Assembly: GCA_025093555.1 (NCBI GenBank)
Contig: JAIWNF010000037.1
Span: 310,001 to 374,000, forward strand
Reading direction: 5' to 3'
Source of the DNA: Circinella umbellata
Lineage: Eukaryota > Mucoromycota > Mucoromycetes > Mucorales > Lichtheimiaceae
DNA length: 64,000 nt
Part shown: positions 3,962 to 63,323 of the stretch, piece after piece
How positions within the stretch are numbered: the stretch's first letter is position 1
How the letters are laid out: each line of letters opens with the position of its first letter
The notes under the pieces: model-generated
Seen by the model: the letters and a program-made list of their open reading frames with translations, nothing else
Told to the model about the DNA's origin: nothing
The model's database searches: none
Made by a program: the position numbers and the translations under genes

Positions 3962-6900
3962 TTAAGGACTAGTATCCATTGGATCACTACTACCCGTTTT
4001 AGATACTTTGCTACGCTTTAATTTTTGTTGGGCTTTCCATGCTTCAATACGTTCCTTCATTTCAGGTGCTACAATATCATATATTTATCCATCATTAGTA
4101 TACATACATATATCTAATTGTGTTCATGTTACAAATATATAATTTTTTTACCTGGTTCAATCATTTCCATTGTTAATGGTGCACGACTAAAAGGATCACG
4201 GGTATCACTTAATAAATGTGCACGAATTGTACTTCGATCTACAATAGTACCTGAAGTAGGCAATAATACTGGATCTTCCATTACACTAGAAAGAATAGGA
4301 TCTATTTTTTGACAAAAAAAAAATCAACAATCGTTCACAAATCGGGTAATCCGCGCCACAAACTTAAACTATCCCGCCCCCGCCCCCCACTTGACTCCCA
4401 ATCAATTAAATCCGAAATAATACCTAAAAATTCATCGGGAACATCACCTAATTCCTCTTCTTCTTCTACGCCACATTGAATAGCTTCTTCTACCTTATTC
4501 ACAAATGTTTCCAAAGCATGAACATCATCTGCATGTTTCAAACGTTGTTTTATCAAGATAGAAGCCGCTTTTGAAAAATATTCTTTTTTATAAGATCGAC
4601 CATCTCTTGCTACAGCTTCAACAAAGGCAGGGCAATTTAAATGAAGATAGATATCAATGATTTCAGAAAGTAATACACGTGGTTGAAAATGATATTTTTC
4701 TCGATTCTTGACTTTTAATTCTTGACATTTTGGACCGACTAATTGAGCAAGATTATAATCAAGCATAGCAGCTAAACGATCGACCACTTCAGATACCATA
4801 AATGGTTCTACTACTTCTTTGGTAAGATATTGAAGCATATGAACTGTTTCGTTACCCAAAGCGACATAGGATTGTGCTTGACGTTCTAATGTACGTAATG
4901 TACCTTCACGTTCTTGACGTTGTTGCTATAATATACATATATGCATATATTATTACGTATTCCTTTCAATTTTTTACTGTATATTTATATTACCTGTGGT
5001 TGAGCTTCCCATGTTGTAGTATCGTCCATTTCAGTTTGTATTTGATGAATTTCAGATAATTTACTTAAACTTTCATCCAACAAATAAGTAACATCACTCA
5101 TTAACATATTAACAAAGCGTGTAAATAATTCATGATTCCTTAAGAAGAAGAAGAAAAAAAGAAAGGTCAGTAAATATATATTGACAAGAGGAGAAATATA
5201 TAAAAACATACTTGCTCTCTTCACGAAGTTTAGAACGATGAGATGGATGATTCCAAATTGTTTTCATAATATGACTAATATTATAACGAATATTAAATTT
5301 ATCATAAAATTGAGAACTTGCACCCGTTTGTTCCACCTCTATAAATTTTTAATTTTTTCTTTTTTTTTCAGTATTTGAATAGATGTAAAAAAAAAAGTAA
5401 TTTAATAAAAAAATCACTTACCAACATAAAAGTTCATTAATGATGGAACTAAATGACCTAATGAAAGAGCATGAGAATTAAGCATAGGTTCCAATTCACC
5501 GGGTATACCTTTACCAAGTGGATAAGTAAAGAAAAAGAGAATCTATTATAATAATAAAGTTTAGAATATAAATCCATTTTATACCATTTGAATACTTTAC
5601 CTCGACAAGTTTTGCTTTCAAATATGGATTTTTAATATATTTTGAATTACGTAAAAAGGTAATAATAAAAGCTACTAATTCTTCTTGAGAGTTACTACGG
5701 AATGTAGGCGTTTGATAACAGTATCTAATAAAATAATAAATATATATATTTGTATGAGAAAAAAAAAGACCTTGAATTCCCATACACATTCCATTGAGTT
5801 TCCTTATTTGAAAAAAAACAACACAATACATACTTTCCAAGGAAAATGAAAAATTCAACAATATCTTCAATAAGCCATTCAGGTTGCATAGCAAATATTT
5901 CAGGAATATTATCAGGTAATGGAAGAGTAATTGATTTCCATGGATGTTGTTTGTGAGGATCTACAAGTCGAACTAACCAAGACATTTCTAAATTTAAGAA
6001 ACGCATTGTTTGTGATAAAAATTCTGTATCCATTAACATGGCTTCAAAAGCTAATTTATGCATTGCCATAACATCTAATCGAGCCTATATATTTATATAA
6101 TTGTATTAGATTTACTGTTTTTTTTTTGTTTCTATTGATACATAGAGTAACACATTGCGTATTCTTGTTATTATTTTACCTTCATACGCTTCATAAGAAA
6201 ATCTTGCATAGGCATCTAAATAAATATAATTATATAAATATATCATCCCCATGTCACATATTCAATTAATATATTACTTACAGCTGAATTACCCATACGA
6301 GCCATCTCTTGTTCCATACGTTCCGTTTGACGTTTTAATTCAGAATATTCTCTTTTAAATTCATTATAATTTACAGCTGATCGAATAGGACCATAATGTA
6401 TAAATGAAATAGTAAGAAAAAATACTTCTGTAATAAAATTATGTTCTATATATAATAATCCAATTTTTTTTGAGTCAGTTTATAAATATATATACATATA
6501 ATTTGATATATAATAAATAAATAAATAAGAACCTTTTTGTGGTCTTGAATCATTATAATATTCATCAGATTGTTCTGTTGTTCCACTAATTTTTGTATCT
6601 TCTTTTACATCAATACGACGACTTGTTTGAAAATAAGTTGGATCTATTTTATCAATCTAAATATATACACAAAACAAGAGAAATGAGAGAAAGAAACATC
6701 AAAGCGTCCCATAACTCCCAATACAATACAATACAATACAATACAAATATTATTATTACCTTGGATGCTTTGACATCCATAAATGGATCACATAAATTTA
6801 ATAAGATGGCTGCAATATTATGCATAAAACCTTCACATGCAACTGTTTGTGGATCCACTTGCATTTGAGCACGTTTTTCATTTAATTTCAAAATATGAGC

Positions 6901-9490: not shown

Positions 9491-10291
9491 TTATGAACCA
9501 ACTTTGGAGGGATCATAGGTATAGGTCTTTATTGTAAAAGGATCTAATGATTTTATAAAAGAAGGATGATAATGAGAAGAATGTTGTTGAGTGAGAAATA
9601 AAGGAAGCAAATTAGAACGAAATGAATAAGAGGATATTAAATGAAAAGGTATTGGAAACATAAGTTTAGAAGCAATAAAATCATTAGAATTCACAGGAGA
9701 AGGAGGATGAGGAAGAAATTGAGAATATTTTAGAAAGAAAGATTGAAGAGATGATTGTTGATTATTTAAGATACGAAAAAAAGTTAAAATGATATTACGA
9801 TGATAAGGACTTTTTTTTATAGTTAAAATATCTTCAGAAAGAGGAGAGAGATAAAAAAAAGCACTGAGCATGGTTTTAAGATGTTTGTCTTGCACTTGAT
9901 TAATATTAAAGGAAAGTTCAGGGGTAATATTTAAAGAAAAGTCAAGTAAAAAACGTTGTAAAAAAGAATTATTTATAGAAGATTGGTCACGAGGATAATA
10001 AGTATTCAATGCTCGATAAAAAAGGTCCCAAAAAAAATTAAATGATGAAGATTCCATAGAAGGAAATAATAAAGAAAGAACAGTATCACGAGGTGAACAA
10101 AATGAAGTAATTAAATCAATCACCCAACGTTGAATAAAATAAAAATAAGGATGATGATGAATTAATATAGGAATGATCCATGGAGAGTGTGAATTAAGGT
10201 GTCGAATCCAAGGATCAGGTTGTAAAGAATGGTTTTTTTCTTGATAATAACGATGGAATAAGAACATGTCATGAGATAATTTAGAGAACAT
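9491..10291 (-). CDS. LINE-derived orphan ORF (266 aa), equivalent to the segment after the RT domain
   Basis: Intact 266-codon frame from MFSKLSHDM to ...DPSKVGS. It is not a normal cellular protein by family. It resembles, block by block, the part of the decayed LINE at 51.7-52.5 kb that lies between the RT domain and the CCHC finger. Compare MFSKLSHDMF with MFPKISYDTF, and SPRDTVLSLLFPSMESSSFNF with QPHDGILCLLFPSLRPSSFNF, with similar spacing. No RT motifs precede it, and no CCHC finger or obvious poly-A tail follows. It may be a truncated retroposed fragment that happens to remain open, or an exapted piece. The likeness is read by eye from the two translations; that the product is expressed is not shown. 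Confidence 0.55.
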   Translation of the reverse strand: MFSKLSHDMFLFHRYYQEKNHSLQPDPWIRHLNSHSPWIIPILIHHHPYFYFIQRWVIDLITSFCSPRDTVLSLLFPSMESSSFNFFWDLFYRALNTYYPRDQSSINNSFLQRFLLDFSLNITPELSFNINQVQDKHLKTMLSAFFYLSPLSEDILTIKKSPYHRNIILTFFRILNNQQSSLQSFFLKYSQFLPHPPSPVNSNDFIASKLMFPIPFHLISSYSFRSNLLPLFLTQQHSSHYHPSFIKSLDPFTIKTYTYDPSKVGS

Positions 10292-52541: not shown

Positions 52542-54424
52542 TAGGGTTCTTCATCTCATCCGCTATCCGCTCATCCGATCCGACTATCCGATCTATCCGA
52601 TCTATCCGCAAGTGTTCATGTATTAAGAATTTTTTTTTTGAAAAAAAAAAGCTGTTTCAAAAGAAAATACAGCATTGAAGCGAGTAATAATTTTAGTTTA
52701 TTGAAAGTAGTAAGTTATAAATATTGGAGAAAATAGTTGATCCATTTGGGAGATCCATTAAAACTTTTGGATCTATACTCATTATTTAACCTAATCCCGG
52801 AAATGCTGAATCCTCGTCATCATACCGTTTTGTATTGCTTATATCACATAATATCCCGTTCCTGCCCAGCAACATTTGTTATAGATAATAGTAATAAGTT
52901 CTTTTTTTTTATTTTTATTATCATATTTCTCATTATTCCTTATAAATCATCTAATTCAAACAGTCATTTATATAATATTTCCATCCTCTTATCCTTATAG
53001 CAGTTGCCAAACAATCGTCTTCTAATGTTTGAAGAAAAAAGAGATAAATTAACGCATTGCTAATAACATAACCAGCCGTTTATCAATAACTACAAAGAAA
53101 ATCTAATAGCAGAAGCGTGGATACTATCAGAAATAATAACGGTAATAATTATCGTTATTATCATCATACGTGATCAATAAATAGTGAATTCCATAAATTT
53201 ATCAACAAAATAATGTATATATTCCGCATGTTGTGGTAAAGTCATATTGAAAGTGATCCAAGGGAGCAATATATGCTGTATTTCGCTATATTAAAGTAAA
53301 AAAAAAAAGTAACATAGCTTCATTAATCAAGTGGTACAATATCGTACGGTATAAAAGAATACTGGGTGTTATGTAGAGATGAATAGTATTTCAGTGATGA
53401 GCAAGAATAAAATAGATTTGTGAACGTCAAATGCATAATCGAATAGATAGAGGTGTGTTCGTCGTTATAAAAGTTGTAAGATTGTAATAACGTGTCATAA
53501 CAAAAAAAAAAGGTTTGAGATTACTACAATTATCTGGTATTTTGATTGCTCGTGTATAAGTTTATAAGTGTTAATGATCAGTACGTATATATAAAAATAA
53601 ATATTGAAGTAAGGGATGGAGTATATATGTTGATGTAACAAAGCAAAAATAGAGAAGAGAAAAGAAAAGTAAATAATAACAAAGAATTTTTGGGGCAGGG
53701 AAATAAAAAAAGAATAAGCTCAGCTTATTATTGGTGTAATATAATGTATATTGTAAATCAAAAATGAAGTATACTTGTACATGTATTTGTATAAATATAT
53801 AATTTACCCTCTCTTTTCTTTTTTCTTCTCTTTCTTTCTCCATTTATTTTTATATACACAGAATCCCCTTTTTCTTCGGCACTCTCTATTTCTACTTCTT
53901 TAACTTTCCTTTTTCCTTTTCCCGTTTTACTTTTTTATTACTTTTATCAATGGTTTTCATTACTAGTAATTTTTTTTATAATAAAACTTAACTCATATAT
54001 AATTTCCAGCAAAATATTGTTTACTTTATATGCTATACCTAGATGAATGCGGACTTTTATTAATATTATTGGCTGACTGTAGGAGCAAAGTAAAGCACTA
54101 TGCTTTGACAATCAATATAAAATAAACTATTATGTTCCTTCATCTTATTCATTAACTTGCCATTACTCTTTATTTTGCATCCTTAACTTGTTTTTTGCTC
54201 GGAAATCGCATAACTGTGCTGTGACAAATGCATTTACCATCTTAATCATAATTACATCTAAATAAAAAAAATTACCATCTTCTTGAACATCTTGCTACTC
54301 ACTAGATATTATCCGCTATCCGATCCGCATCCGCAGCATCCGCATCCGCATCCGTATCCGCACTTGCGGATGCGGATGCGGATAGCCCTATTATCCGATC
54401 CGATCCGATCCGTGAAGAACACTA
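52542..54424. mobile_element. hAT-like non-autonomous DNA element (1,883 bp) with 8-bp target duplication
   Basis: Flanked by CACAGAGA at 52534-52541 and 54425-54432. Ends are TAGGGTTCTTCA and, inverted, TAGTGTTCTTCA. The 8-bp duplication and short T-A-G-x-G termini are characteristic of the hAT superfamily. Subterminal regions are dense with ATCCG repeats (52558-52612 on the left; 54307-54410 on the right, including a palindrome around GCACTTGCGG). The interior is AT-rich with no transposase coding, so it must depend on an enzyme elsewhere. Excision in silico restores the LINE frame. Confidence 0.82.
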
Positions 54425-54628
54425 CACAGAGATGATAACAACAATACATTGAGTACTGTTGCATGACCCCGAATAGACAAATTATGTTGTGAGTGAATGT
54501 TACAGCCAGATTTAATTTTGGCAAGAAGGGTGTTAGCATAATCATCACGTTGTTTGGTCGATGAGTACAATAGATAGCCTAAATAAGAGAGAGCTTGATT
54601 GGAATGTTTATCATGCCATGAGATGATA

Positions 54629-54833
54629 CAGGATTTTTCCTAATGATTGGCGGGGGGTTTTTTCCCATCATGGCGGGGCCTTTTTTCATTTTGGCGTTGG
54701 GGGGTCTTTTTTGATTGGCGGTGGAATTTTCATGATTGGCAGGAGGTGAAAAATTACAATGGCGGTGTGAAAATTTACAATGGCGGTGCAATTTTAGATG
54801 ATGGCAGAATTACAAATTTCATGGCGGTTGGGA
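54629..54833 (+). repeat. Left terminal inverted repeat with nine TGGCGG-type boxes
   Basis: TGGCGG or close variants start at 54648, 54671, 54692, 54716, 54737, 54760, 54781, 54802 and 54822. Spacing is 20-24 bp, about two helical turns each. The first box lies 19 bp from the terminus. Boxes are separated by T- or A-rich stretches. Confidence 0.88.
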
Positions 54834-55077
54834 ACTGTGATTTTAATCCCTTATTAAAACTATTTTCTGTAGCTTTCTTATTATTTTTATGTTGTAAATT
54901 TTATAATTTATTAAAAAAAAACCATATTTAAATATGAAAAAAATAATAATAATAATATAAAGATAAAAATAATAAATAATAAATAATGATATGAAAAAAA
55001 TAATGATATAAAAAAAATAATGATATAATCAAAGGTAAAAAAAATAAAGGTAAAAACAAAAACTACAACGTTCCCTC
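54834..55077. other. AT-rich spacer between left inverted repeat and left transposase stop
   Basis: Very AT-rich with ATGATATAA-type short repeats; probably the 3' flank of the minus-strand gene. Nothing else is visible. Confidence 0.5.
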
Positions 55078-55887
55078 TTATTCCATGATGGCAAGTGATT
55101 GCTTAATCCACATTTGACAATCTTGGGCAGAAATTTGATTGGCTGAATCGGTTACTCTTGGTAGTAACGCATCAACTGTTGGCAACTTTCTATTTACACT
55201 GGCCTTCAGCTTCAACCAGAATTCTTGCATGGGGTTCAAGAAGGGCCGATGCTGAGGAAGATACATTATATGGAAGCCTTGTTTTACAATAGCCTCCTGA
55301 AATTCTTGGGTTTTATGGATTGGTGCATTATCCATAACTAAGGTCCTTCCACCCATTCCATTTTCCTTGAGCACCTTCATCAGCACCTCCAGGAACCCAA
55401 CATACTTGTCTTTAATACTACTACTTTTTCGTGGCATTCTTCTAGCACTTAGACTGACAACTCCTTCACCAGTGATACCACCCAAGAACGTAAAGATGTG
55501 ATTGCAAGGCATTGGGATTCTTGCCTTAGTAGAAGAACCTCTTGCTGGACGTCTGGGCTGTATGTTGAAACAACTTTCATCTATAAAGACACACTTATAA
55601 TAGTCAACACCGTTGATCATAACAGATGGAGTCATTGATTTAGATATAGAAGTTTCCTATTAAGTTATCAACTATTAGTTAATAAAAGTTTGAAATACAA
55701 GCCAAAATTCATAAAGAGTTATCAGTTTATTTTTTACCTTGGCCATTGACAAAAGTGGCTGTACACCACTGGTAACTCCACTGCATTCATTGGATATAAT
55801 GGGATAGACATCGTCCACTTCCATCTTGTCTTCAAGCATATCAACGTCTGCATCGTATGGTTGTCTGGAGCTCTCAATATATGACAT
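55078..55887 (-). CDS. Truncated transposase paralogue lacking the DNA-binding region and with altered catalytic Glu (242 aa)
   Basis: Exons 55887-55738 and 55656-55078 join in phase 0 (...SMAK/ETSISKS...) to give 242 residues. The N-terminus shares an acidic block with the full-length paralogue (YDADVDMLEDKMEVDDVYPI). The body is an IS630-type DDE domain: DYYKCVFIDESCFN, GGRTLVMDNAPIHKTQEFQE, YLPQHRPFLNPMQEFWLKLK. The whole region that in the paralogue holds the N-terminal DNA-binding part (about 170 residues) is missing. The third catalytic position, Glu in NPIEELW of the paralogue, is Gln here (NPMQEFW), and PPYSPF is changed to PQHRPF. The frame is otherwise intact. It is expected to be catalytically dead; it may act as an inhibitor or partner, or may simply be a relic. 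Confidence 0.8.
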
Positions 55888-56003
55888 GGTACTTGTAGGT
55901 TTAAAAAATTGAATAAAAATGTAAGCAGAAGTTGCAGTGGATAAACAGCTCTTTTATATTCTTTTTCTTTTCGAGCATCATAGTTTGAATAATATTTAAG
56001 TTC

Positions 56004-56080
56004 GTTACACGGAACACCCTTATTTAATATTTTTTATCACACACAAAAAAAAAGGCCTTGGAAGTTGGTTACACAGAACA
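56004..56080 (-). promoter_or_regulatory. Paired TGTTCCGTGTAAC-type sites upstream of the left transposase
   Basis: GTTACACGGAACA at 56004-56016 and GTTACACAGAACA at 56068-56080, 64 bp apart. In gene sense they read TGTTCCGTGTAAC, 117 bp and 181 bp before the ATG at 55887. A TATA-like ATATAAAAGAGC follows between the sites and the start. Confidence 0.6.
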
Positions 56081-56210
56081 ATCAGACAAATAATATGTTA
56101 TAGCGTACAAACACAGATGGATACACATGTCATTATAGAAAGGATGAAAGGAAAAAATGATGGGAGATATGTATTGGAAATGTAGCTATTATTAAAAGAA
56201 TCTATTTAAA

Positions 56211-56696
56211 CTAAGCTACCAAAAATATCCACAAGTCTCTTACAATTGAAAGACGTCTCAATCTAGTGCCAATTTCTACATGTGGGCTACATCCACTAAT
56301 ACACAAACGGCGTTCCAGAAGATGCAAGGCCCGGCCAATTTCATTCCACTTGGCTAAAACTCGACAAATAGCTCTTCTTGATACATTGAATTTTACAGCA
56401 ATGATATCCTTTGACTCCCATGTTTCGAAATACATTTGGGCTATTTGCTCTTTTATATCCACAGATAGCTTGACCCATTGTCGTCTATGAATCTCATCAT
56501 ATAGCTCCCATCCTTCTACTTCAAATAGAGGTATACGATTTTGATGAAGCATCAATGCACAATCAAGATTTGTTTGAACAGATTCTATAAACAAGAGCTA
56601 TTGTTAACAAAAGAAAATCAGTGATGTTGGCAATAACACACCTTTTATTTTAAGAACCGCAATAATGAAGTCTGCACGAACGTATGGGTATGGCAT
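56211..56696 (-). CDS. Small helix-turn-helix protein of the transposon (142 aa)
   Basis: Exons 56696-56642 and 56584-56211 (junction g|aa) give 143 codons. It starts MPYPYVRADFIIAVLKIK. The start is chosen because GTATAAAAGC, a TATA-like box, lies about 55 bp upstream. Residues about 65-100 (LSVDIKEQIAQMYFETWESK followed by DIIAVKFNVSRRAICRVLAK) have the spacing of a helix-turn-helix as in the N-terminal domain of IS630/Tc1 transposases. No catalytic residues. It may be a detached DNA-binding subunit or repressor. No family match is claimed. Confidence 0.6.
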
Positions 56697-56865
56697 TTTA
56701 AAAACGAATGAAATAATCCTTTTCCATTGCAGATGTGTTGCTTTTATACTTTTTTTATGATTGAATCCATAATGTAACACAAGCACAATCTCACAAATCC
56801 CACTCACAGACACATATCGTTATCCATTCTCAAGACAAATCAAATCAAAACCAAAGTAATTGTAA

Positions 56866-57269
56866 TTATTTTAATGAATTATTGTTTATTTCACGATGAC
56901 GAACTCTCTCTCGAGCAATGTGGGTTGCCACAGTGGACAAAGCCAAACCGGTTATTTCAGCCACGTCACGGACTTGGAGATGTTTGTCAAAATGAAGATG
57001 AAACATCTCCAGACGTTCTTGTTCCATGACGCATGCCTCTTTTTGACTTGGAGAGGGGTGGGTGAAGCTAAATAAACAGTTTTTTTTTCTCCATAAGCAT
57101 TCCATATATATATGTATGTATGTATGTATATATCTAGGGTATTTTTAAACTTACCAAACACAACATCAACCAGATCCAGAGACTCGATCCAATTATCATA
57201 CGCGATTTGGGGGTTGGAATTAGCATCATATGTGCCCTTAGTGTTGGCTTTGTAAATTTGCGTGCCCAT
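56866..57269 (-). CDS. Small helix-turn-helix protein of the transposon (95 aa)
   Basis: Exons 57269-57155 and 57038-56866 (junction g|ag) give 96 codons: MGTQIYKANTKGTYDANSNP ... DLVDVVF/EACVMEQERLEM. The C-terminal half (FDKHLQVRDVAEITGLALST then VATHIARERVRHREI) is a compact helix-turn-helix with a basic recognition helix. The alternative acceptor at TTTATTTAG does not keep the frame, so the acceptor after AAAAAG is preferred. Likely a DNA-binding regulator; inferred only. Confidence 0.55.
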
Positions 57270-57502
57270 TGTTAATAAAGATAAAATATGTTCATCTGAG
57301 TAACCAATTCTCCAGCTCTTAAATAGTTGCTTACCATCATTTTCTCACAATTTTTTTGTACTTTGGTAACAATTTTTTTTGTATATGGCAAACATGGGTT
57401 ACCCAGACCTAATCAAATTTGAATATTTTTTCTGGGATACTTTTGGGCTCCACAAAATAGACTCACACAACTACCCAGTAAAAATCAGAAAGAAAGTATT
57501 TT

Positions 57503-57943
57503 TTATTTATCAATAATATTGAGATAAGTTTCTCTATATTCCTGAGCCCATCGAAACATCATTGATTTTAGGACCTCAGTTCTATTATACCCTTTTCTTT
57601 CAATTGCACATTGTCTGATAGCCTCCTTAATTCTTTCATCCTCTCTCTTCCACTTCGGTACTCTTTGTTTTTTGGTTTCCATTAGTATTAAAACTTGTTC
57701 TTCTAGCTGTTGTGCCCTCTCCAGCATCTCTTGAAGAGCCAATTCACTAGGGAGCATGACCGATGGTTCATACCTTGTTCCCGTCCGCTTTGCGTCTAAA
57801 ACTCTAATAAATTCCTCTGTTTGAAGCATTAGAATACCATGTCTAAAAGTAATGTTAATTATCATACCAATCAGAGGATCTTCTCCATCACTGGCGTTGA
57901 CAGCTTCACGTATTTCATCATGACTTAGGGCAACGTCGCTCAT
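57503..57943 (-). CDS. Accessory protein of the transposon, unknown family (146 aa)
   Basis: A single-exon frame, MSDVALSHDEIREAVNASDG to ...ETYLNIIDK. It contains an acidic N-terminus, a coiled-coil-like Glu/Gln/Leu-rich stretch (ALQEMLERAQQLEEQVLILM), then a basic segment (KKQRVPKWKREDERIKEA). Its start lies about 190 bp from the first of six GTTACACGGAACA-type repeats at 58134-58451, so it may share regulation with the transposases. No recognised domain. Confidence 0.6.
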   Translation of the reverse strand: MSDVALSHDEIREAVNASDGEDPLIGMIINITFRHGILMLQTEEFIRVLDAKRTGTRYEPSVMLPSELALQEMLERAQQLEEQVLILMETKKQRVPKWKREDERIKEAIRQCAIERKGYNRTEVLKSMMFRWAQEYRETYLNIIDK

Positions 57944-58127
57944 TTGAAAATATTATGGAAAAGTCTATAGTAAAGGCATATAATCAATGTTATATATAAC
58001 AAAAATAAAACTTTAAAGAGAAATACGAATACATACAAATAGAACGTTACAAGAAACAAATTGTTTCATTCCACTCGAAGCTGATCCCATTCCGTTTTTG
58101 TGCGAGTGCACAGTGAACGTTCAGAAT

Positions 58128-58465
58128 TAGTTTGTTGCACGGAACAAAGCAAAGACCAATTTCATAAGAAAAGTACAAAGAGAAAATATTTAAAATTGTT
58201 ACATGGAACAAAGCAAAGACCAATTTCATAAGAAAAAAAATATTCAAGTTGTTACACGGAACAAAACAAAGGCCAATTTCATAAGAAAATACAAAGAGAA
58301 AATATTCAAGTTGTTACATGGAACAAAGCAAAGGCCAATTTCATAAGAAAAATACAAAAAGAAAATATTCAAGTTGTTACATGGAACAAAGCAAAGGCCA
58401 ACTCCATAAGAAAAATACAAAAAGAAAATACTCAAGTTGTTACACGGAACAAAGCAAAGTAAAAA
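58128..58465. repeat. 63-bp tandem repeat carrying the GTTACACGGAACA motif (six copies)
   Basis: Copies start at 58134, 58198, 58251, 58313, 58376 and 58439 (spacings 64, 53, 62, 63, 63). Each begins with GTTACACGGAACA or a one- or two-base variant and continues AAGCAAAGGCCAATTTCATA. A related single site occurs at 58552 (GTTGTACAGAACA). The same 13-mer appears upstream of both transposase genes, so the array may be a binding-site cluster. Confidence 0.85.
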
Positions 58466-58696
58466 TGCATAAACAAAATAATCAAAGCGGTCACTTGTAA
58501 AACAAATCATAATTATACTTTGGGACCATCTTGAAGGTGGATAATTAGGGTGTTGTACAGAACAACAAAAAATTGCTATCTTGTTGTGCTCAATTCATAT
58601 GATATATTTGAGCCATGTCAAAAAAAGTATATAAAGAGTAAGGCATAGATTCATTTATAGTGATAGTCCGAAAAAATAATTCAATATTTATACAAT

Positions 58697-59124
58697 ATGG
58701 CTGAAGATCTCCTTAATTTGAAGATGTACTTATGCAAGATGATATCTACAGCACAAGGGAACTGAGTAATGCACTTCCTTATACAGACTTTGTGGAATCT
58801 CCTTCCTTCTCACCATCACCATCACCATCACCATCGCCATGATCATCACAACAAGCAACACGACAACAGAGCAGAAGGGTGCACCGCACATATACATAAG
58901 ACGATATAATTGCGGTTTTAAAGGCACATTTTTTTCAAGGTCTTCATGCTGAACAAGCTGGTGCGATTGTTGGGATGCCCAAGACAACCACGGCAAAATT
59001 GATCCGTACCTACAGGCCACAGATGCCAGCACCACCTCCACTGCGCCGATCGCAACCTCGTGCCCCTCGACAGAGTAGCATGATCAGTAGAGTCAATAGT
59101 GACGTGTTGGCAGCTGCTTTGTAG
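58697..59124 (+). pseudogene. Broken helix-turn-helix gene of the transposon
   Basis: In one plus-strand frame: EDVLMQDDIYSTRELSNALP, YTDFVESPSF, a Ser-Pro repeat (SPSPSPSPSP), stop, SSQQATRQQSRRVHRTYT, stop, DDIIAVLKAHFFQGLHAEQA, GAIVGMPKTTTAKLIRTYRP, and a Pro/Arg-rich tail ending VLAAAL. The start codon at 58697 (MAEDLLNL) is one base out of frame. Both stops could arise from single C-to-T changes. The GLHAEQAGAIVGMPKTTTAK segment is helix-turn-helix-like, and DDIIAVLKAHF echoes the DFIIAVLK of the 142-aa protein. An unrecognised intron cannot be excluded. Confidence 0.5.
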
Positions 59125-59600
59125 CAATAGTTTTTTTTTTATTATCAATAATTTTTTTTTGCCATTGCTTGTTTAATTCAAATATTTACTTTATTTAACA
59201 ATGATATAATACTATGAGTTCTTTATAAAAAATGAGATTTGATTATTATGTACATCATATGCTTTAATTAAAAGTCGGTGTCCACGTATCTGCCTTTGTG
59301 TGTGTGTGTGTGTGTGTGTGACAACAAATTTAATTACTTCTCTCAGGGTGTTCTGTATGGTCCACTTACACGGGCTTTTTTTGTATGTAATAATTAGAAT
59401 GTTGTAATGTTCCGTGTAACCAGATTGAACATTATGCAAAATGATCTATGAGGCACAAAGAAGAAAAATAAAGAGTATAAAAGCATAACCATTTATCTAC
59501 TGCAGCTTCTGCTTCTGCTTACAAACCTATTCAGTTTCTTAATTAACAACCACAATGCTATCTATTAAGTTTGCTACTACCATACGATACCGACGTTGAT
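59125..59600. other. Promoter region of the full-length transposase
   Basis: Contains TGTTCTGTATGG at 59349 and TGTTCCGTGTAAC at 59408-59420, mirroring the paired sites of the left paralogue. A TATA-like GTATAAAAGC lies near 59474, followed by TATCTACTGCAGCTTCTGCT, which closely matches the left gene's leader (TATCCACTGCAACTTCTGCT). A TG microsatellite lies at about 59299-59320. Confidence 0.6.
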
Positions 59601-61088
59601 ATGCACGAAGATGAGATGGAAGTGGACGATATGTATCAAATCGTATCCAATGAGTGCCACAACTTCACTGGTGGTGTTCAATCTCTGGTATCCATGAAAA
59701 AAATAAAAAAAATATCAAAGGTATTTAATGAAGTATAGTTTTGTATTCCAAATTTGACTTGTATTCTGATTATCTTTAATAACTCATAGGTGATAATTGC
59801 AGCAAACATCCAAGCCCAAATTAATGGATTCTCAAAAATCCATTCTCTCAACTACCACTGAACCTGCTCAAAATGTAACAGAACCAATGAAAAAGGCTAG
59901 GGGAAGGCCATGCAAGAACCCTCAACAAGAAGCCGCTATTGTTCCAAAGCGTACGTTATTTAAATTATTAAGTCTCCAGTTTTTTTGTCTAACTTCGACC
60001 TCGTAAATTGTATAGGAGCTCATCGAGTGTATCGAGATCCAGAAATCATCCAACTGATCGACAGGATCCAAAACATCACCTTGAATGCTGCAGAAGCTGG
60101 CCGCGACCTTCTGATTCCCGAGCGGACTGCACAGCGATATTGGAAGCAATTCGTTGACGGCGAACCTTACCTCCCCAGTACAATAGGTAAGTCTCCCGGC
60201 CCTCCACCAACTTTGCAACCGATACATACCGCATTCCTACAGACGTATTATGACACCAAGTCAGACGCGACCCTGAAAGAAGCACAGCAATCACTTGTTG
60301 ATAAATTCAAGATCAGCATCACTCAAAGTGGCCTTCAAAAGCACCTCGTTAATAAATTTGAGCTTACTATGAAAAAGTTAGAACGAATCTCCGAGTACCA
60401 TAATTCTGATGAAACGATCGCCTCATGCATCAACTGGGCACACGCATTTGAATCTAGTGGCATGGATTATTACAAGTGCATCTTCATTGATGAAGCTGGA
60501 TTTAACATGCACATTAAACGTAGCTTTGGTCACTCGAAACGAGGTACTCCGGCCAAGGCTTTGGTTTCCAAGTCGCGTGGGGTTAATATAACTATCATAG
60601 GTGGAATCACTGGTGAGGGTGTTGTTAACCTGAGTCTTAGAAGACCACAAGCAGTTGTCGGTTCCAAGAAACGTAAACTCCGCAGTGGTGAAGAAAAAGT
60701 TGTGGGGAAAATTGGTACACGGGCAGAGCATTATATAGAGTTCTTGGAGGTGCTTATAGGAGTGTTGAAAGAAAATGGCATGGATGGAAGAACGTTGGTT
60801 ATGGACAATGCAGCTATTCATAAGACACAGGAAGTGCAGGAGGCGGTATCGAAACAAGGATTTGAAATAATGTACCTTCCTCCTTATTCCCCCTTCCTTA
60901 ACCCGATCGAAGAACTTTGGTCAAAGCTGAAAGCTGGCATTAAGCGCAATCTATTGACCACAGACGACACCTTATTGCCAAGGATCATTGACTCTGCCAA
61001 CCAGGTCACTGCCCAGGATTGTCAGGGTTGGATCAGGCACTCTCTTTCTTTTGTGCCTCATTGCATTAATGGAGAGAAAATGTTGTAA
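59601..61088 (+). CDS. Full-length IS630/Tc1-type DD34E transposase (446 aa from inner Met)
   Basis: Cuts and joins the transposon ends at TA. Exons 59601-59720, 59803-59950 and 60016-61088 give 447 codons. Order: acidic N-terminal block (DVDMHEDEMEVDDMYQIVSN); an AT-hook-like KKARGRPCKNP; a helical DNA-binding region (YRDPEIIQLIDRIQNITLNA, RTAQRYWKQFVDG); LVDKFKISITQSGLQKHLVN; then the DDE domain with DYYKCIFIDEAGFN, GRTLVMDNAAIHKTQEVQEA and YLPPYSPFLNPIEELWSKLK. The second Asp and the Glu are separated by 34 residues (DD34E), and all three acidic residues are present. Compared with the left paralogue, the leader has lost 2 bp between an upstream ATG (59555) and the conserved block, so translation probably starts at the inner Met at 59601. 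Confidence 0.88.
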
Positions 61089-61343
61089 TTCTTTTTTTTA
61101 TCCTTATATATTTTTTCTATCTTTATACGTAACCTTATTTTTATATTCATCCTTACAATTTTATATTTATATTTATATTTTACCTATCCTCATATTTTTT
61201 TATTTACACTTTACTCTTATATATTTTCATATATAAATATGTTTTTTTTTAATAAATTATAAATTTTACAACAAGAAACGATCTTCTGTTTTGCTAGAGA
61301 ATATATTTTTAAGAAGGAAAACAAAATCATAAATTATAGTTCT
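61089..61343. other. AT-rich spacer between transposase stop and right inverted repeat
   Basis: T-rich with TTATATTT-like repeats; likely the transposase 3' untranslated region. No other signal. Confidence 0.5.
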
Positions 61344-61545
61344 CAACCGCCATGAAATTTATAATTCTGCCATCATCTAAAATTGCACCGCCATTGTAAA
61401 TTTTCACACCGCCATTGTAAATTTTCACCTCCTGATAACTATGAAAATTACACCGCCAATCAAAAAAGACCCCCAACGCCAAAATGAAAAAAGGTCTCTG
61501 CCATCATGGGAAAAAAAGGCGCCCCAATCATTAGGAAAAATCCTG
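61344..61545 (-). repeat. Right terminal inverted repeat with nine TGGCGG-type boxes
   Basis: Mirror copy of the left repeat. Boxes (CCGCCA on the plus strand) end at 61352, 61372, 61393, 61414, 61437, 61458, 61481, 61503 and 61526. Spacing is 20-23 bp, and the outermost is again 19 bp from the terminus. The fifth box (near 61437) is degenerate (TATCAGG). Confidence 0.88.
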
Positions 61546-61547
61546 TA

Positions 61548-63323
61548 TTAAATTCCGCCAAAATAGACAACCAATTGGAAGATTCCATGCCGAATAATGA
61601 GATAACTTGGGTTTTTAAAAGATTGACCTTGGCATTGGAGGCAGCAGCACAAGTATCAAAGTGAGAAAGACAGTGACAAAGATCTTAGTAATTCTGTAAA
61701 AAAACAAAAGCATCATCGGCATATGCCAAAATTTTAGCAGCAGGTGGGCCAGCCACACCAGGTAGTGAACTGGGAATTTTGTACCCTTTAAGCTCTTAAT
61801 CATGTAAAATACGTTGCAATAAAGGTTCAAAAGCTAAGTTAAATAATAAAGGTGAAAGTGGATCACCTTGACAGACACCGCACTGTTAGCGGATAGAAGG
61901 GGATAAATGACCGTTTACATTAATAACAATTTGAGTGCCAAAAAACAGACTGATAATACAATGAACCAAACTTGAGGGGAAGCCAAAACGATTAAGGACC
62001 TACTGAAATTACTCCGGATGAACTCTATCATATCCTTTTTCCTGATCAAGCAATAACCCTATATGGGGAGAATTGTGTCAATGTGTATGATCCATAATGA
62101 CTTTTACCAACATCCCATTATCTGCAATATACCGACCATAAAGAAAACCAGTTTGATATTGATTAACAAGATTAGTAGCAACAGATATCATTCAATTATT
62201 GATAACTCGAGTAAAAATTTTACAGTCTACATTAAGAAGTGCGATTAGTCTCCAATTTTTTAGTGAGGACAAAGCACCCTTTTTGGAAAGTAAACATAAA
62301 CAGGTGCTAGACTATGAATTTGGGAAGTGTGCGTCTGATAAAGCTTCGTTATATACCTGATGGATGAGAGGTTGAACACCGGGATGATCAAATATTAATG
62401 CTAATATAATATAAGGCAGGCTATCAATACCAGGACTACTCTTTTTTGGACAATGATTAACATGGTAAAGTAATTCTTCCAAAGTAATAGGAGCAGTCAA
62501 TCAATTACGAACTGATGGAGCCAAACCACATGATGCTGGAAGTTGATGTAATAAGTCGTCAATTGCTGGTGAGGTGTACGATAGAATAATAGTTTAGTTC
62601 AACAATAAAAATATAATAAAACGATGAGTCCTTTGAAATAGTGTTTATTCTTGAAAAATAAGATAAAGATTATTATTCTATGTACGAGTTGGTCTATTTA
62701 TATGAGCTGTTTATTATGATGGGTTATCTCTGGTATATCATCTGAAGAATGTATCTTAAAGAATGCTATCTTCAGGTATGATAACCTTATTCTTTGGAAG
62801 ATCCTTTTTAGCTTTATCAGGGGTAGACCCTTAGAATCTCCGGTATTTTATACTCTTAATTCCAGGACACTACAGCTGGTTGAGCGATAGGTGCTGGTGT
62901 ATATAAAGTATCATAAAATAAACAGACCGAGTTGTACATATGAGATATTGAAGAGTCAACTGCTAAAGTATTTGGATGCTGTAATGGAGGTAGAGCACGT
63001 TTAGCTTCTCTTGTTTTAACTATTCTTTTCAAAAACCCAGCAGATTTTTCCCCCTCTTCCTGAAATTGGACAGAAGATCATAGAGCTAAATTATCCATAT
63101 ATGTTTGTTGTAATGCTGCTATTTCAGTTTCCTCTGCTGTAATTCTATTTTGGTTAACATGATGGTTATGTGAACGTTGTAATAGTTGATTTCGTAACCG
63201 TTGTAGCTTTCGTAATTATTGTAGCTTTCGTATTTCAATGGCGCGTTTATTTGCTTGTTTATGTCCAAATTTTTGACATAACTTTTTTACCATAATTTTG
63301 AGGTTTTCCCAGGTTGTTTGAAT
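61548..63323 (-). pseudogene. LINE polyprotein, linker and reverse transcriptase part (broken)
   Basis: Upstream linker: QTTWENLKIMVKKLCQKFGH, EKSAGFLKRIVKTREAKRAL, FYDTLYTPAPIAQ. RT domain: ELLYHVNHCPKKSSPGIDSL, SLKNWRLIALLNVDCKIFTR, VNQYQTGFLYGR, GLLLDQEKGYDRVHP, CQGDPLSPLLFNLAFEPLL, and the catalytic YADD box in LAYADDAFVFLQ. About nine in-frame stops interrupt the RT, with no frameshift across about 930 nt. A solo LTR (62570-62874) splits it between the linker and RT. Non-functional as it stands. Confidence 0.85.
62570..62874. mobile_element. Solo LTR (305 bp) with 5-bp target duplication
   Basis: Flanked by GCTGG at 62565-62569 and 62875-62879. The element starts TGAGGTGTACGATAG and ends CCAGGACACTACA, i.e. 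TG...CA termini as in LTRs. No internal region is present, so it is best read as a solo LTR left by recombination of a Ty1/copia- or Ty3/gypsy-type element. Removing it restores the LINE frame (..IAQPAIDDLL..). Orientation is unknown: the minus strand gives TGTAGTGTCCTGG as the start. Confidence 0.8.

Follow-up and report, generated by a model that had tools for sequence, protein, structure and literature searches.

Tc1/mariner elements are textbook minimal transposons, usually of 1-2 kb and with one gene, in which the behaviour of the single encoded enzyme is the main limit on activity. The 64,000-nucleotide stretch of Circinella umbellata DNA analysed here (the window, which lies on contig C142 of the searched genome of 50.8 Mb and 210 contigs) holds at positions 54629-61545 an element of this superfamily that measures 6,917 bp and has six genes, and the question raised by this locus is what the additional genes are doing there. 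The same six genes were found in the same order and orientation in a diverged copy on contig C61. Our reading, to which we give a probability of roughly 0.6, is that the element belongs to a six-gene Tc1/mariner (IS630-type) lineage in which TnpR would be the working-type transposase and the other five genes a fixed set that damps transposition.

A six-gene element and its diverged copies

The element is a DD34E transposon with CAGGATTTTTCC ends, and both of its junctions are exact and lie where the original prediction had placed them. The left end opens with CAGGATTTTTCC at 54629 directly after ...gata and the right end closes with GGAAAAATCCTG at 61545 directly before tatt..., with TA target-site duplications read at the two junctions (54627-54628 and 61546-61547). 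The inverted repeat arms (54605-54843 and 61331-61569) are 239 nt long at 84% identity with a few flanking bases included, in agreement with the predicted repeats of about 200 bp, and a further inverted block of 38 nt has 92% identity. The TA duplication, the terminal inverted repeats (TIRs) and a DDE_3 transposase with DD34E spacing are those of the Tc1/mariner superfamily, whereas the length and the number of genes depart from its customary build.

Gene models with GT-AG introns were predicted from the sequence, with introns in all genes except orfE (the HTHc model was taken from C61). Four genes lie on the minus strand, namely TnpL (55078-55887; exons 55887-55738 and 55656-55078), a 242-aa transposase paralogue with the catalytic domain only; HTHb (56211-56696; exons 56696-56642 and 56584-56211), a 142-aa helix-turn-helix (HTH) protein; HTHc (56866-57269), a small HTH-like gene with one intron; and orfD (57503-57943), which gives a 129-aa protein once a 51-nt intron is removed. 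The two genes on the plus strand are orfE (58697-59124), with a Ser/Pro-rich N-terminal part and a transposase-type HTH, and TnpR (59601-61088; exons 59601-59720, 59803-59950 and 60016-61088), a full DD34E transposase of 446 aa whose start codon is uncertain, as the frame in the copy on C206 extends further upstream. The original prediction counted three open accessory genes and one broken gene; we found two open (HTHb and orfD) and two damaged. Window HTHc carries a one-base frameshift relative to the copies on C28 and C186, and window orfE changes frame close to the start of the gene and contains in-frame stops.

In the copy on C61 (locus L015), the same end stands at the start and is followed by TnpL, HTHb, HTHc and orfD on the minus strand and by orfE and TnpR on the plus strand. 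All of these genes are open with the exception of TnpR, which an ATCCG-type repeat interrupts close to its end. The C61 models contain no stops (TnpL, 238 aa; HTHb, 113; HTHc, 110; orfD, 141; orfE, 184), and the modelled introns of TnpL, HTHb, orfD and TnpR fall at places matching those in the window. Protein identity between the two copies ranges from 80% for TnpR (320 codons) through 67% for HTHb, 60% for orfE, 52% for TnpL and 44% for orfD exon 2 down to 38% for HTHc.

Partial copies in the same order were found on five contigs (C24, C28, C186, C206 and C13), and the expectation that further copies would share the gene order was thus borne out inside this one genome. At C24:341-354k, pieces of TnpL, HTHb, HTHc, orfD, orfE and TnpR follow each other in order, with long inserts and stops. 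The copies on C28 (94%), C186 (97%) and C206 (95%) are close to the window type and end where unrelated sequence starts, and C13 and C24:386k hold left parts of the element. Searches of the genome with the individual middle genes led almost entirely back to these elements. All six rows for orfD (on four contigs) lie within them, with short first-exon pieces also in an element on C35; nine of nine rows for HTHb are in loci with these ends or with TnpL; four of the five for orfE are in elements, the fifth being a weak match on C4; and three of the four for HTHc, searched with the C61 version, are in elements, the fourth being on C199. The window's own HTHc was not recovered by the genome search with this C61 query.

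When the flanks of the element are joined over one TA they form a continuous frame that looks like a decayed reverse transcriptase of a long interspersed nuclear element, with a YADD stretch seen by reading and with stops further off. No empty site was found at the DNA level when the joined flanks (447 nt) were searched against the genome, where the query gave, besides the flanks themselves, only a one-sided match in another copy on C150 (77%, positions 5-198 of the query) and a short stretch of C174. Protein-level continuity across the site was therefore used in its place. The translated search gave 44 rows, two being the window flanks themselves, 33 crossing the site and nine one-sided, and the best match (C90, 65% identity) lies within a 1260-codon frame. 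We also observed an ATCCG/GCGGAT-rich repeat at window positions 54311-54420, adjoining the element, and at L015:8060-8160 and 9820-9901, where the C61 transposase is cut; it perhaps represents the ends of another mobile element. The window also encodes an NDT80/PhoG protein, which is consistent with a fungus.

Transposase paralogues, middle genes and selection

TnpR matches the Pfam domain DDE_3 (E 5.5e-26) and has the D-D-E triad with 34 residues between the second D and E, as had been predicted; the same spacing occurs in single-gene relatives from this genome. No Pfam HTH match was found in TnpR, and its relative on C130 gives a weak HTH_23 match (E 0.071); the N-terminal regions of the two show a strong profile match. 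A stretch of RGRP in TnpR exon 2 is presumably AT-hook-like.

The second transposase of the original prediction is present as a paralogue (TnpL; DDE_3, E 2.4e-16) but is not a full transposase. TnpL consists of the short acidic first exon of TnpR and the catalytic domain. At all eight TnpL loci (window, C28, C186, C24 twice, C61, C49 and C13) no TnpR match starts before query residue 147, and the HTH region is therefore absent from TnpL, and in the frames upstream of the catalytic domain a short exon stands where the HTH stretch would be. The TnpR segment EKVVGKIGTRAEH is absent from six of six aligned TnpL rows, four of which start at the catalytic domain, the alignment being silent on their N-terminal part. 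Two subfamilies can be told apart by the catalytic triad. Window-type TnpL has D, D and Q, the Q replacing the catalytic E in three of three aligned rows and likewise in C28, and C61-type TnpL retains E in three of three aligned rows and likewise in C49, and shares its last residues with TnpR. In trees of 13 rows, from which the TnpR of C24 was left out, all TnpL sequences fall on one branch (support 78/79 and 80/84; 77% and 85% of bootstrap trees).

Profile comparison connects orfE with the part that TnpL lacks. The orfE profile matches the N-terminal region of the single-gene relatives (hhalign E 1.8e-6 over 55 columns at 27% identity) and that of TnpR (E 9.4e-5), against best values of 0.029 and 0.014, respectively, in 60 column shuffles each, with thin profiles of 2-4 sequences throughout. 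On these profiles, orfE is homologous to the first HTH of the transposase. TnpL and OrfE therefore look, from their sequences, like transposase halves turned into separate proteins. HTHb and HTHc are candidates for additional DNA-binding proteins, the C61 version of HTHb having an HTH_23 match above the Pfam cut-off and an HTH_Tnp_4 match below it (E about 1e-5). The possibility that HTHb, HTHc and orfD share an ancestor with the transposase was also considered and dropped, as hhalign gave it no support. The AlphaFold model of orfD, made from three sequences, is helical at modest confidence (mean predicted local distance difference test score, pLDDT, 69.7) and that of orfE is uninformative (mean pLDDT 38.4). 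No relative of orfD was found in prokaryote genomes and none of TnpR in viral contigs, and a search of PHROGs yielded nothing useful.

Five of the six genes, all but HTHb, show signs of selection. A total of 33 gene pairs were compared for the ratio of nonsynonymous to synonymous divergence (dN/dS), and 17 of them were taken into a test of 1000 bootstraps on the corresponding proportions of differences (pN and pS), the C186 rows of TnpL and HTHb standing outside these counts; the ratios are rough, as several pairs approach saturation and not all copies are intact. Bootstraps in which pN reached or exceeded pS numbered 0, 0, 1 and 16 for the four TnpL pairs, 0, 0 and 1 for the three HTHc pairs, 1 and 1 for the two orfD pairs, 0 in each of the three orfE pairs and 0 for the single TnpR pair. 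An excess of third-position differences was seen in four of four, two of three, one of two, three of three and one of one of these pairs, respectively; three HTHc pairs involving the window are saturated. Silent sites in the HTHb region (window 56211-56594 and its homologues) have diverged far less (dS about 0.35) than those of the neighbouring genes, and HTHb has thus possibly been exchanged between subfamilies.

Repeated sites, ends and related elements

Nine GTTRCAYGGAACA-type sites occur in the element against 0.06 in shuffles, an expected value that is optimistic since the patterns were chosen after viewing these sequences. Beyond the element, the 54.6 kb on the left contain one weak site and the 2.5 kb on the right none. 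At three sites the motif also fits the reverse strand with two mismatches and is thus palindrome-like. Six of the sites lie in the central tandem array that had been predicted (58107-58487, plus strand), which is made up of about six 63-bp units. Upstream of TnpL, a site at 56004-56016 (plus strand) and a second at 56068 with one mismatch accompany a TATAAA at 55953 on the minus strand, and upstream of TnpR a site at 59408-59420 (minus strand) accompanies a TATAAA at 59476. Variants of the motif occur in C61 at 2716 (TnpL side, one mismatch) and at 4437 and 6511 (TnpR side), and the claimed symmetry of the promoters is supported, the motif standing upstream of both transposase genes in both copies. 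In the C24 copies, two GTTACACTGGACA sites were found between orfD and orfE (L013) and one at C24:386k (L014).

The TIRs contain a second kind of repeated site. The left TIR (54629-54843, plus strand) has nine TGGC[GA][GT] units at offsets 20-194 and a spacing of 20-24 bp, compared with a mean of 0.76 and a maximum of 4 in 500 shuffles, and the right TIR (61331-61545, minus strand) has seven units in register with the left end. Over ten ends, TGGC[GA][GTC] units occupy offsets of about 20, 43, 65, 88, 109, 132, 153, 174 and 194, with five to nine present per end and spacings of 20-25 bp, or double where one unit is absent. The single-gene relatives on C130 and C25 have TTTGCG every 20-23 bp at four of four ends, and the relative at C142:505k has TTCGCG at 22, 46, 69 and 114 in its left end and only at 68 and 113 in its right end. 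Phasing at about 20-25 bp was thus observed at loci L029, L030 and L031 as well as in the window, with differing cores (TTTGCG, TTCGCG and TGGCGG) and weakest at the right end of L031. To judge from these sequences, a row of sites on one helix face seems to be a property of the transposase lineage, the core varying from family to family.

The 27-base terminus TACAGGATTTTTCCTWATGATTGGCGG has 55 matches in the genome with at most three mismatches (31 forward and 24 reverse) and none for the reversed control pattern. Facing ends no more than 20 kb apart form 13 pairs. In one of these, on C13, an outer end has probably been matched with an inner one, and chance may account for the 14.7-kb pair on C164; seven pairs were fetched (window, C13:583k, C24:379k, C112, C128, C151 and C35). 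The search of the genome with the transposase listed at least 116 matches and, among the matches listed, a full-length transposase lies within one end pair only, the window's own. Copies with just the right transposase and inverted repeats, which the original prediction had named as the pattern that would speak against it, were not seen among these pairs, and a 2.1-kb pair at C200:699122-701249 has only TnpL-like protein matches listed.

Two of the fetched pairs are evidently non-autonomous. The elements at L023:1917-6975 (C128, 5.06 kb) and L033:167-6496 (C151, 6.33 kb) are 97-99% alike across shared blocks, stand at different genomic sites with TA at both sides, retain 18 residues as their only trace of TnpR, and hold open frames (250 and 165-174 aa) with no Pfam match. 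Their near-identity at different TA sites implies that the ends were seemingly mobilised in trans, and fairly recently. Gene ends have been copied into both TIRs in several relatives, namely TnpR 3' pieces in C13 and C112 (with one end seen in two C139 loci) and orfD in the 8.3-kb C35 element (L032:178-8455), whose inverted repeats of about 508 nt (93%) both carry a piece like the orfD first exon. Within the 8-kb C24 copy, an open frame resembling a retroviral-type integrase was seen by reading (L014:5024-5305), another inserted element. Inverted pairs of transposase relatives whose scores are equal or nearly so, with about 4 to 22 kb between the two members, were also observed at C178:302574/311022, C169:233825/237442 and C207:42760/64768, all outward-facing, and at C79:275824/286035, inward-facing; they are candidates for large palindromes or other two-ended elements.

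Comparison with known systems and competing explanations

The element shares its TA target, TIRs, DDE_3 domain and 34-residue spacing with the Tc1/mariner DD34E group, from which it differs in its 6.9 kb, six genes, catalytic-only and DNA-binding-only paralogues and operator-like repeats. The single-gene relatives in this genome have related DD34E transposases (43-47% identity for C130 and C25, 58-59% for C142:505k), a TA followed by TTG...TTTTTTCC ends and TIR sites phased at 20-24 bp, but they are 1.8-2.4 kb long with one gene seen and have a TTTGCG or TTCGCG core instead of TGGCGG. A multigene build is already known from ciliates. Sardine of Paramecium measures about 6.7 kb and has TIRs of 425 bp and as many as four open reading frames (ORFs), Anchois has two extra ORFs, and Thon is also covered (PMC3464196); TBE of Oxytricha has three ORFs, with purifying selection reported in the title (PMC4724952); and the extra genes include a tyrosine recombinase, a zinc-finger/kinase protein and hypothetical ORFs (PMC4724952, PMC3464196). 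A paper on the Tc1/mariner tree allows for additional ORFs in DNA elements (PMC7325037), and the consulted parts of a study of Mucorales give more than 200 Tc1/mariner copies per genome and mention no multigene build (PMC7928374). Like the ciliate elements, the present one combines a Tc1/mariner transposase with other genes, but here these are transposase halves and HTH-like proteins, and no Pfam match to a tyrosine recombinase or zinc-finger/kinase was found among the accessory genes scanned. The literature searched yielded no fungal precedent for a Tc1/mariner element with these genes, which is weak evidence as subscription literature was thinly covered. The KP protein of the P element is a shortened transposase that is thought to damp transposition, and TnpL may be its analogue; KP, however, is a deletion product of the whole element, whereas TnpL is a separate gene within each element beside the full transposase.

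Self-regulation fits these observations best, and we infer damping as the direction of the effect along with the protein partners and the binder of the motif. TnpR would cut at the ends and insert the element at TA; TnpL would pair with TnpR to give dead or stalled dimers; OrfE would compete with TnpR for its binding sites; and at least one HTH protein would bind the GTTACAYGGAACA sites in the central array and beside the promoter of each transposase gene, so that TnpL, OrfE and the HTH proteins would jointly keep transposition at a tolerable level. More tentatively, and with somewhat less than even odds, the division of the transposase into three kept genes (whole enzyme, catalytic half and DNA-binding half) may form with the HTH regulators and the operator array a built-in dose-control circuit that follows the logic of a phage regulatory region.

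Several observations weigh against this reading. The middle genes are all open only in C61, whose TnpR end is cut by another repeat, and orfE and HTHc are broken in the window copy. HTHb gave no selection signal (pN/pS 0.66-2.5; 87, 165, 256 and 987 of 1000 bootstraps; third-position excess in none of four pairs), and two close pairs outside the bootstrap test likewise lack one by their dN/dS, namely TnpL of C24 versus C13 (0.97 by NG86 and 1.38 by YN00) and orfE of the window versus C206 (0.61, with three differences only). The match of HTHc to Sigma70_r4_2 (E 1.7e-4) is below the cut-off, as are its matches to HTH models. With hhalign, no homology was found among HTHb, HTHc and orfD or between any of them and the transposase, and orfD had no meaningful match in Pfam or PDB (none in PDB at E<=0.001). 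One reversed hhalign control, the DNA-binding part of the single-gene relatives against reversed TnpL, reached E 0.0025; orfE was not involved in it. The TnpL branches are long, and the trees give a single origin of TnpL moderate rather than firm support. Finally, no motif site was found in the C24 (L012) or C13 (L018) pieces.

The accessory proteins might instead be needed parts of a multi-subunit transposition machine, in which TnpL would partner TnpR structurally and the HTH proteins would help to pair the long, site-rich ends. The long TIRs with up to nine phased sites, the selection on TnpL and orfE in the bootstrap-tested pairs and the D-D-E kept by the C61-subfamily TnpL would all suit such a machine; we nevertheless regard it as unlikely, as single-gene relatives with similarly phased TIRs manage without extra genes and the window-subfamily TnpL has lost the catalytic E. 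It is less probable still that TnpL is a functionless product of copying between the inverted ends, by gene conversion or foldback, in an otherwise ordinary multigene element. Such copying is suggested by the derivatives with gene ends in their TIRs (C13, C112 and C35), by the last residues common to C61-type TnpL and TnpR, and by the dN/dS near 1 of the close C24-C13 pair. However, pN is below pS in the four bootstrap-tested TnpL pairs, EKVVGKIGTRAEH is missing from both TnpL subfamilies, and the TnpL rows form one group in most bootstrap trees.

We consider it very improbable that the genes benefit the host as cargo of the kind known from gene-carrying fungal elements. Other TIR-bearing members of the family (C128/C151) do carry unrelated open frames, but most of the conserved set is of the DNA-binding kind and part of it is built from transposase domains, and just two accessory-gene matches lie outside known elements (C4 and C199). 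A chance composite, in which two inverted mariner copies trapped unrelated genes at this locus, would account for the inverted paralogues at the two ends. It would require the C61 copy to stem from one recent insertion, which the 38-80% protein identity contradicts; in addition, an inverted-repeat search of the window reported no inner TIRs, five other contigs hold parts of the set, and outside these elements the accessory genes have almost no matches in the genome. With the same six-gene order present in C61 at such divergence, we reject this explanation, as the original prediction had done.

If the self-regulated lineage is real, dedicated control genes can evolve in Tc1/mariner elements, and a multigene Tc1/mariner build would exist outside the ciliates with a different gene set. 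The element would then offer a compact system for direct tests of the trans-regulation of mariner transposases.

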